From positions 124,001 to 188,000 of the forward strand of contig NZ_FWFK01000005.1 in NCBI RefSeq assembly GCF_900172265.1: a stretch of DNA of 64,000 bases, read 5' to 3'. The notes beneath the pieces are model-generated. The model did no database searches, was not told where the DNA came from, and saw only the letters and a program-made list of their open reading frames with translations. Both the position numbers and the translations under genes were made by a program. Origin of the DNA: Roseivivax jejudonensis (GTDB taxonomy: Bacteria > Pseudomonadota > Alphaproteobacteria > Rhodobacterales > Rhodobacteraceae). Positions 35,706 through 61,678 of the stretch are shown here, piece after piece; within the stretch, counting starts at the first letter, position 1, and each line of letters opens with the position of its first letter.

Positions 35706-35753
35706 AGCGTCCCGACGCGGACGCCCGGCTTGGCCGCGGCTGCCCGGCTCTCC

Positions 35754-35828
35754 TTCTTCTTGGCGACAATACTCCGGGGAGCGCGAGGGGCTGGCCCCTC
35801 GCATCCGCACCGGCCGCCCGCGCCGACC
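35754..35828 (-). repeat. Dispersed hairpin repeat, copy A (head type 1, tail type I)
   Basis: Oriented on the minus strand. It runs from a GGTCGGC/GCGGGCGGC-like outer part (35828-35803) to an 8-bp hairpin GCGAGGGG-CCAG-CCCCTCGC (35802-35783), then GCTCCCCGGAGTATTG and the tail CGCCAAGAAGAAG (ending at 35754). The hairpin and the nine bases after it are identical to copy B at the other end of the eut module. It fills much of the 167-bp glpK-eutB spacer. Confidence 0.8.
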
Positions 35829-41464: not shown

Positions 41465-41540
41465 GGTCGGCTGCGGGCGGCGCGCGTCGGAGCGAGGGGC
41501 CAGCCCCTCGCGCTCCCCGGGGTTTATCGGCAAGATGAAG
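41465..41540 (+). repeat. Dispersed hairpin repeat, copy B (head type 1, tail type II)
   Basis: Starts with GGTCGGCTGCGGGCGGC (41465-41481), then the hairpin GCGAGGGG-CCAG-CCCCTCGC (41492-41511), GCTCCCCGG and the tail GGTTTATCGGCAAGATGAAG ending at 41540. The head is the same as in copy A but in opposite orientation; the tail is the variant also seen in copy E. It lies between atf and the convergent idi gene and marks the left edge of the photosynthesis cluster. Confidence 0.8.
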
Positions 41541-49733: not shown

Positions 49734-49771
49734 TGCGATGCCTGCGCCTCTCCGCCTCACCCGCGCCCCTG

Positions 49772-49823
49772 CTTCTTCTTGGCGCAAATACTCCACGGGG
49801 GTCCGGGGGTGTGACACCCCCGG
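49772..49823 (-). repeat. Dispersed hairpin repeat, copy C (head type 2, tail type I)
   Basis: Minus orientation. Its hairpin CCGGGGGTGT/ACACCCCCGG (49803-49823, 10-bp arms) is followed, reading leftward, by GGACCCCCGTGGAGTATTT and CGCCAAGAAGAAG (to 49772). It fills half of the 100-bp bchN-bchB spacer and ends 10 bp before the bchB ATG. Confidence 0.8.
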
Positions 49824-49833
49824 TCGTGTTGCC

Positions 49834-51390
49834 ATGAAGCTGTCGGTCTGGACATACGAGGGCCCGCCCCATGTGGGCGCGATGCGGGTGGCCACGGCGA
49901 TGAAGGGTCTGCACTACGTGCTGCACGCGCCGCAGGGCGACACCTATGCCGATCTGCTCTTCACCATGATCGAGCGGCGCAATCATCGCCCGCCGGTGAC
50001 CTACACGACGTTCCAGGCGCGCGATCTGGGCTCCGACACGGCGGACCTGTTCCGCCGCGCCTGTCTCGACGCGCACGAGCGCTTCGCCCCCGAGGCGATG
50101 ATCGTCGGCGCGTCCTGCACCGCCGAGTTGATCCAGGACGATCCCGGCGGCATGGCCGAGACGCTGGGCCTCGGCATCCCGGTCATCCCGCTCGAGCTGC
50201 CGTCCTATCAGCGCAAGGAGAATTTCGGCGCCGACGAGACGTTCTACCAGATCGTGCGCGCGCTCGCGGCGCCCTGCGCGCGGACCGAGACGCCGAGCGT
50301 CAACCTGATCGGGCCGACCGCGCTGGGCTTCCGCCACCGCGACGACATCACCGAGATCACGCGGCTTCTGCAGGACATGGGCGTGGCGGTGAACGTCTGC
50401 GCGCCCTACGGTGCGCGGCCCGCGGACATCGCGCGGCTGGGTGCGGCGCACCTGAATGTGCTGATGTATCCCGAAACCGGCGAGAGCGCGTGCCGCTGGA
50501 TGGAGCGCGAGCTGGGCCTGCCCTACACCAGGACAGTGCCGATCGGCGCGGGCGCGACGCGCGATTTCGCGGCCGAGGTCGGTGCGGCGCTGGGTCTCGC
50601 GCCGGCGCTCGACGAGGCGCGGCTGCGCCTGCCGTGGTACTCGGCCTCGGTCGATTCGACCTACCTCACCGGAAAGCGCGTGTTCGTCTTCGGTGACGGC
50701 ACCCATGCCCGCGCCATGGCCCGCGTCGCGCGCGACGAGATGGGGTTCGAGGTCGTTGGGCTCGGCTGCTACAACCGCGAGATGGCGCGCCCCCTGCGCG
50801 CCGCGGCGCGCGACATGGGGCTCGAGGCGCTGGTGACCGACGACTACCTCGAGGTCGAGGCGGCGATCGAGGCCGCCGCGCCCGAGCTGATCCTCGGCAC
50901 CCAGATGGAGCGCCACATCGGCAAGCGCCTCGGCATCCCCTGCGCGGTGATCTCGGCGCCGGTGCATGTGCAGGATTTCCCCGCCCGCTACGCCCCGGTG
51001 ATGGGGATCGAGGGCGCGAACGTCCTCTTCGACACGCTGGTGCACCCGCTGGTCATGGGGCTCGAAGAGCACCTGCTGACCATGTTCCGCGAGGATTTCG
51101 AGTTTCACGACGCCGCCGGCCCGAGCCATCACGGCGGCCATGCAGCGGCGTCCGGGGAGGGGGGCTCCGCCCCCCAGACCCCCCGGAGTATTTCCGCCAA
51201 GAAGACCGAGCCGGACGGCGGGCCGGTCGAGGTGGTCTGGCTTCCGGCGGCCGAGCAGGAGCTTCGGAAGATTCCGTTCTTCGTGCGCGGGAAGGCCAAG
51301 CGGAACACCGAGGCGTTCGCGGCGTCGCGCGGCGAGACCGAGATCGGCGTCGAGACCCTCTACGAGGCGAAGGCCCATTATGCGCGATGA
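49834..51390 (+). CDS. bchB: Light-independent protochlorophyllide reductase subunit B
   Basis: A 518-residue NifK-like DPOR subunit. Asp36 (APQGDTYAD) is the aspartate ligand of the NB-cluster. A nitrogenase-like core (to ~435) is followed by a linker and a C-terminal PCP-red domain (about 464-518, [18 protein letters not shown]). The linker, about residues 440-458, is encoded by repeat copy D, in frame. No ribosome binding site is visible before ATG 49834, which is preceded by the hairpin of copy C. It overlaps bchH by 11 nt. Confidence 0.95.
51153..51204 (+). repeat. Dispersed hairpin repeat, copy D, inside the bchB coding sequence
   Basis: CCGGGGA, hairpin GGGGGGC-TCC-GCCCCCC (51159-51175), AGACCCCCCGGAGTATTT and CCGCCAAGAAG (to 51204). 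It is translated in the bchB frame as roughly [19 protein letters not shown]. It belongs to the same family as copies A, C, E and F but sits inside a gene. Confidence 0.75.
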
Positions 51391-54931: not shown

Positions 54932-55030
54932 GCGGGCGCGCGCATATCCGCCCGGACGCCGGGCACCGCCCGGCCCGGCCCGCCACGGATCACGCCGTTC
55001 CGCGCTGTGCGCGGGGCGGATGGCGCGGGA

Positions 55031-56074
<1,044 letters not shown>

Positions 56075-61602: not shown

Positions 61603-61630
61603 GCCGGATCCGACAGGACGACGGAACGGC

Positions 61631-61678
61631 CCGGGGGCGCTGCCCCCGGACCCCCGGAGTATTTGACCCAAGAAGAAG
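61631..61678 (+). repeat. Dispersed hairpin repeat, copy F (head type 2, tail type I)
   Basis: Hairpin CCGGGGGC-GCT-GCCCCCGG (61631-61649), then ACCCCCGGAGTATTTG and ACCCAAGAAGAAG (to 61678). It lies in the 121-bp acsF-puhE spacer, in the direction of transcription. Confidence 0.8.

Follow-up and report, generated by a model that had tools for sequence, protein, structure and literature searches.

A dispersed extragenic repeat lies in frame in the interdomain linker of BchB in Roseivivax jejudonensis and in other Rhodobacterales, mostly in the dialect of its own genome

Introduction

In-frame repeats are already known from conserved genes of Rickettsia, and from small repeats of Neisseria and enterobacteria (PMC2229807). 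The Rickettsia palindromic elements (RPE) are described as dispersed hairpin repeats, open in reading frames, that lie between genes but have in some cases become an in-frame part of conserved genes for proteins (PMC2229807). Here we analyse a repeat of about 50 bp found in the window, by which we mean the whole stretch of 64,000 nucleotides of the Roseivivax jejudonensis genome at positions 124,001 to 188,000 of contig NZ_FWFK01000005.1. One copy of this repeat lies in frame within bchB, the gene for subunit B of the light-independent protochlorophyllide reductase. Like RPE, the element is found both outside genes and in frame in conserved genes, its hosts being bchB, the gene for the small subunit of xanthine dehydrogenase (xdhA) and a gene for an RlmL-like rRNA methyltransferase. 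Unlike RPE, it has a bipartite core made of a head and a box, is rarely genic, and comes in genome-specific variants, which we call dialects; with its ~50 bp and a hairpin on one side, it is not the stem-loop of 105-146 bp with terminal inverted repeats that is typical of RPE.

Other families resemble it in part. The Correia/NEMIS elements of Neisseria and the enterobacterial ERIC, both miniature inverted-repeat transposable elements, are likewise small, mainly intergenic and also fused in frame, but they are reported to have terminal inverted repeats and target duplications (PMC2229807), neither of which is evident in the present element. The Caulobacter CIR is, like ours, an alphaproteobacterial intergenic repeat; it is reported to have stops in all six frames and a GANTC site, and has not been found inside genes (PMC2229807). 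The DNA uptake sequences of Neisseriaceae are also short motifs that are constant within species and differ between them, but they run to thousands of copies (PMC3630211), whereas the present element has tens per genome and, in some genomes, two to three families. These tens of cores are near-identical within each of several Rhodobacterales. REP sequences are short, form hairpins, occur outside genes in many copies and for the most part do not lie at divergent promoters. The present element is like REP/RAYT in its many short extragenic hairpin copies and unlike it in that the conserved part is a bipartite core of 22-24 nt, and in that no PF01797 was found in the nine genomes of the genus. We did not find the family described in the top-ranked literature on it or on Rhodobacter repeats and terminators, which does not prove its absence from print, nor in passages of PMC2267715 and PMC6238624. 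Rfam gave no match in the window above the gathering score, and a plasmid search with the 50-base element returned one weak match, from Ruegeria.

Results

The bchB product has 518 residues, of which Pfam assigns 12-406 to Oxidored_nitro and 469-513 to PCP_red. The in-gene element occupies positions 51151-51205, in sense and in frame, and codes for about residues 440-458 in the linker that joins the nitrogenase-like and PCP_red domains. It is laid out as a hairpin, GAGTATTT, a 3-nt spacer and a CCAAGAAGA box, with an exact match to the core at 51183-51205, and this linker segment is common to three sister genomes. A preliminary description of the window had placed a repeat copy in frame in bchB at 51153..51204, and both coordinates and frame were right (residues 440-457). 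It had added that the insertion lies in a linker and leaves the catalytic parts untouched: the position between the Pfam domains is borne out, and the second half is a reading of the domain boundaries.

This copy is one of a genome-wide element. A search with the strict core finds four copies in the window, against zero across 100 shuffles. At up to three mismatches there are 85 cores in the genome (4.3 Mb, 21 contigs) and none for the reversed pattern, and CCAAGAAGAAG by itself is found 84 times, against 7 for the reversed control. Across the 83 copies outside bchB, the box is near-invariant, with several types of hairpin and a variable spacer. The six copies in the window form two families, four with the CCAAGAAGA box and two with the GGCAAGATGAAG box, the latter having 61 exact occurrences in the genome (reversed control, 2). 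The preliminary description had taken all of the other five for the same element; this is correct for those that share the CCAAGAAGA box with bchB, and not for the two of the second family. The second family has a longer T run (GGGGTTTTTTC in the copy between bchH and bchL) and is more terminator-like than the first.

The elements are strongly extragenic and rarely in genes. The neighbours of the 84 copies with enough flank are convergent in 30 cases, on the same strand in 49 (29 with the element forward, 20 with it reversed) and divergent in three. The gene caller placed two of the 84 inside genes, in bchB and in an overcalled gene start (L139). The latter was considered as a second intragenic copy and rejected because its left flank is non-coding, and by a coding test of both flanks the bchB copy is the only intragenic one (1/84). 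This test passes 198 of 210 sampled coding positions in the window's genome and is weaker in genomes of lower GC (82 of 120 for L054, 66 of 120 for L073), which makes the counts for G010 and G013 minimum values. The sister genome G001 has one intragenic copy in 78, again in bchB; G010 has at least two in 78, in bchB and the RlmL-like gene; G003, whose linker copy does not fit the search pattern, has none in 33; G011 has one in 10 (xdhA) and G013 at least zero in 14, a part of the known copies having been examined in these last three.

BchB was found in eight of the nine genomes of the genus, including the window's own (G000), the ninth (G006) having no bchB. To these we added the best 80 of 587 confirmed named bchB loci from outside the genus, for a total of 88. 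Within the genus, the linker holds the element in G000, G001, G003 and G005, and not in G002, G004, G007 and G008. The preliminary description had expected the segment to be missing, or the linker to be unrelated, in the majority of close relatives, which agrees with this distribution: four of the seven other bchB genes lack it and three have it. The case it had set against its own reading, that all relatives carry the same linker with synonymous differences, was not what we found: 4/8 carry it, and the diagnostic bases alter residues (S/D, A/V). Among the matches listed, and with a core pattern for G000 that differs from the one for the other genomes of the genus, the four carriers have 85, 76, 33 and 31 core copies, the four non-carriers 2, 1, 3 and 0, and G006, without bchB, is repeat-rich with 64. 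Within the genus, cores fall from 31-85 to 0-3 per genome, and a gene restricted to the repeat-rich genomes would be a candidate for what drives the element.

Of the 88 bchB linkers from Rhodobacterales, which with the window's own come to 10,929 bases, 17 have the exact head GRRTATTT (that of the window among them), in every case in sense; 14 of the 17 belong to the 80 loci outside the genus. Codon-shuffled linkers had a mean of 0.06 with the head and a maximum of 2 in 1000 rounds, and the remaining 125,928 bases of these bchB genes have a single head match, antisense. Two frames are used: 15 of the 17 heads share one, mostly reading [SD]IS, and L095 and L105, which belong to a separate clade, have the head in another and read AEYLDK. 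This count of 17 uses the strictest definition of a carrier. The tree label has 22 carriers, including one-mismatch heads (L035, L062, L067, L113) and L086, and comparisons of linker length and stems use 19 of these, with L062, L067 and L086 counted as non-carriers. Carrier linkers are longer than the others (median 49 vs 39 residues; 19 vs 69 rows, p 5e-5). In a tree of the 88 BchB cores, from which the linker had been removed, the four carriers of the genus group together in a single clade with an SH-aLRT of 98; across all 88 loci, the carrier label needs 16-17 changes, at least nine of them forced by starred branches. The sister species L054 and L073 have in their linkers different element families with different hairpins, and gains or replacements must therefore be recent as well as old.

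Genomes differ in the dialect of their cores, which we listed among matches to a fixed pattern ending in GAWG. The cores of G001 (n=78) combine AG heads with C boxes (43) or GA heads with T boxes (27), with the crossed forms found once each and six others. Those of G010 (n=78) have three fixed boxes, with 29, 28 and 16 copies, and G020, G021, G011, G014, G015 and G017 each have other dialects. Head and box covary like paired bases in G001 (AG with C, GA with T), but a stem between them was rejected because the other dialects do not preserve the pairing. Boxes found in linkers recur in their own genomes, for example GAACATGGGAA (L061), GCGAAAGGAAG (L035), GACCGAAGATG (L056), GAAGCAAAGATG (L054) and CAAAGGTGAAG (L095). 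Most linker copies are in the dialect of their own genome: over 9 nt, the box is exactly that of its own genome in 13 of 17 tested copies, and four of the exact ones (L112, L056, L035, L061) match no other of the 17 genomes. Mismatches sum to 17, against a mean of 56.9 and a minimum of 27 in a permutation that ignores relatedness (0 of 100,000 as low). The test covered 17 of the 22 carriers; the five dropped had no genome copies by the pattern (L062, L086), one copy (L080) or three (L088), or had no genome in the set compared (L067). Between the window and the G001 linker, the hairpin is identical and three of the bases just downstream of it differ, AG..C vs GA..T. They are the very bases that separate the two core families of G001, and they change the protein from serine to aspartate and from alanine to valine. 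It seems to be the DNA element, rather than the enzyme, that sets part of the sequence of BchB.

Two other conserved genes host the element. In G011, an antisense copy lies in xdhA between the Fer2_2 (79-148) and FAD_binding_5 (227-390) domains. This linker has a copy in three of the 20 loci compared, taken from at least 30 (L300, L306 and L309, in three genomes); those of L306 and L309 are also antisense, in the same frame as L300 by translation, and a fourth match (L319) looks like chance. The element can thus be accommodated between the domains of more than one enzyme. In G010, the RlmL-like rRNA methyltransferase gene (L377 1124-2287, minus strand; Pfam UPF0020 and RlmL_1st) has an in-frame copy, GNEGRCPSRSPGYLENEEGG, inside the stretch matched by the methyltransferase model. 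Its coding score of 6.8 is below the cut of 8 applied to G001 and G011 and above the cut of 6 applied to G010, and we counted it because the cut there was 6 and Pfam names the gene. The preliminary description had called the capture of such an element as coding sequence unusual: it is indeed rare (1/84), but this linker has been a host repeatedly, at least two further genes have such a copy, and there are precedents. A weight-matrix scan located further copies in the bchN-bchB junction of 23 of the 88 loci and in some bchH-bchL junctions. Within the genus, the bchN-bchB junction (window 49734-49833; L111-L118) has the element in G000, G001 and G003; in G002 and G007, bchN seems to run almost to the start of bchB, leaving no room for it. 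The features of the window are given in Table 1.

Table 1. Copies of the element in the window, and parts of bchB and of its in-frame copy
Feature	Position	Strand	Remarks
Extragenic copy (hairpin, GGAGTATTG head, CCAAGAAGAAG box)	35753..35802	-	
Second-family copy (hairpin, GGGGTTTATC, GGCAAGATGAAG)	41490..41540	+	
Extragenic copy, bchN-bchB junction, opposite orientation	49772..49823	-	
bchB, light-independent protochlorophyllide reductase subunit B, host gene	49834..51390	+	Pfam Oxidored_nitro and PCP_red; PDB BchB chains are the best matches
BchB interdomain linker, residues 425-466 (42 residues)	51106..51231	+	Length and sequence vary across relatives
Hairpin of in-gene element, outer stem TCCGGGG/CCCCGGA, inner stem GGGGGGC/GCCCCCC	51151..51187	+	RNA fold
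Head CGGAGTATTT of in-gene element	51184..51193	+	
3-nt spacer of in-gene element	51194..51196	+	Differs among copies
Box CCAAGAAGA of in-gene element	51197..51205	+	Near-invariant in the 83 other copies compared
Second-family copy, bchH-bchL junction (GGGGTTTTTTC, GGCAAGATGAAG)	55028..55075	+	
Extragenic copy between two same-strand genes	61630..61678	+	

Discussion

We consider it fairly probable that tolerant linkers between domains have captured a dispersed, terminator-like extragenic element, whose copies there change in concert with the rest. The comparison with intrinsic terminators is mixed: there is a hairpin followed by GTATTT, and 79 of 82 extragenic copies are not between divergent genes, but same-strand copies are oriented 29 vs 20 and some copies have no clear hairpin by eye. 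From the hairpin, the short T run and the rarity between divergent genes, we infer that its usual place of action would be the 3' ends of genes. Inside translated bchB, ribosomes would normally suppress any terminator effect. In this genus, the in-frame entry into the BchB linker would date to the ancestor of the repeat-rich clade, and other lineages would have acquired the element in their BchB linkers independently. It is presumably tolerated there because the linker connects two folded domains. Once there, the in-gene copy may be kept in step by gene conversion, by re-insertion, or by selection exerted by a shared trans-acting factor, which would also be what holds the box invariant.

One version of this account we put forward tentatively, and hold to be doubtful rather than probable: the core (GRRTATTT, a spacer of 2-3 nt and a box of 9-11 nt) might be the binding site of a trans-acting factor with species-specific specificity, such that the sites of a genome, including the coding ones in bchB, xdhA and the rRNA methyltransferase gene, change with the factor. 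The combination of a near-invariant box with a variable spacer, and the presence of the same hairpins with either core family of G001, would fit recognition by such a factor. Copying of whole elements as the sole process was judged unlikely, because each core family of G001 is joined to the same hairpins and copies of one family differ in their spacers.

Several observations weigh against capture followed by upkeep. The RNA fold of the in-gene hairpin (-28.6 kcal/mol, z -1.8) beats shuffled sequences only modestly, 9 of 200 being equally good. Long stems are also present in linkers without the head (15/69, vs 9/19 carriers), and hairpin self-complementarity in linkers gave mixed results. On the tree, the observed label is matched by 45 of 500 shuffled ones, so that carriers are only weakly clustered; gains are indistinguishable from losses, and the independence of the insertions depends on this one quick tree. 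Nine of the 13 exact linker boxes also match related genomes, relatedness being what the permutation disregards. The boxes of the other four tested copies differ from their own genome at 2 (L038), 4 (L081), 5 (L053) and 6 (L040) of 9 positions, that of L053 matching a copy in its own bchN-bchB junction. No mobility enzyme was found, RAYT (PF01797) being present in none of the nine genomes of the genus when the same search found it in 5 of 14 known genomes; a RAYT-driven REP is thus not supported in the genus. Finally, random insertion alone does not predict that 15 of 17 heads share a frame and all 17 are in sense, and common ancestry with later conversion, or some constraint, must therefore be added. 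The retention of the same frame fits conversion at a shared anchor.

The orientation in bchB may suggest instead that the in-gene copy works in the mRNA of the bch operon, where it would separate bchB from bchH either as an attenuator resembling a terminator or as a barrier to decay, exposed when translation of bchB falters, with orientation and position under selection. The sense heads are all close to the 3' end of bchB, GUAUUU follows immediately on the predicted nested stem, the element recurs in scattered lineages, and there are the further copies in the bchN-bchB and bchH-bchL junctions. But 71 of the 88 bchB linkers have no exact head, same-strand intergenic copies have no clear orientation bias (29 vs 20), and the sense orientation does not hold generally, since each of the three xdhA linkers has its copy in antisense. 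We regard this alternative as unlikely. A role specific to bchB was our first idea after the sense-only result, and it was weakened by the antisense xdhA copies and the RlmL-like copy.

The remaining alternatives place the cause in the protein. The linker segment might have been exapted as a lysine-rich peptide that helps BchB to bind BchN, BchL or the membrane, as the basic or polar ends of several dialects (AKK, QKK, EAK) could suggest. Yet the residues follow the dialect of the DNA and not a conserved peptide, L095 and L105 encode EYLDK, and many linkers have no such segment, which makes protein-level selection quite improbable in our view. The least credible account is that of an ancestral coding sequence, in which a conserved linker peptide (e.g. 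PRDIS-x-K) resembles the repeats by chance, or is their source. It could draw on the frame shared by most heads with its [SD]IS reading and on similar peptides in distant lineages, but it is at odds with the other frame of L095 and L105, the match of dialect with extragenic copies, the absence from 4/8 proteins of the genus and the copies in unrelated proteins.

The in-frame repeats analysed here recur in one particular linker of an enzyme of phototrophs that is conserved and oxygen-sensitive, and they mostly track the dialect of the genome. The element thus offers a testable system for the concerted evolution of dispersed repeats, where a DNA-binding factor and conversion can be set against each other as the driver, and it bears on how far constraints at the level of DNA dictate protein linkers. 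Should the factor version be true, the recognition code of the factor would write the amino-acid sequence of enzyme linkers.

The BchB linker may also have received other sequences. In the linkers of L032, L078, L082, L084, L088, L091, L097 and L101, the self-complementary GGGGGCTCGATGCCCCC, or a similar stretch, codes for GGSMPP, and is possibly another repeat in the same place; the linker of L088 has both this stretch and the present element.
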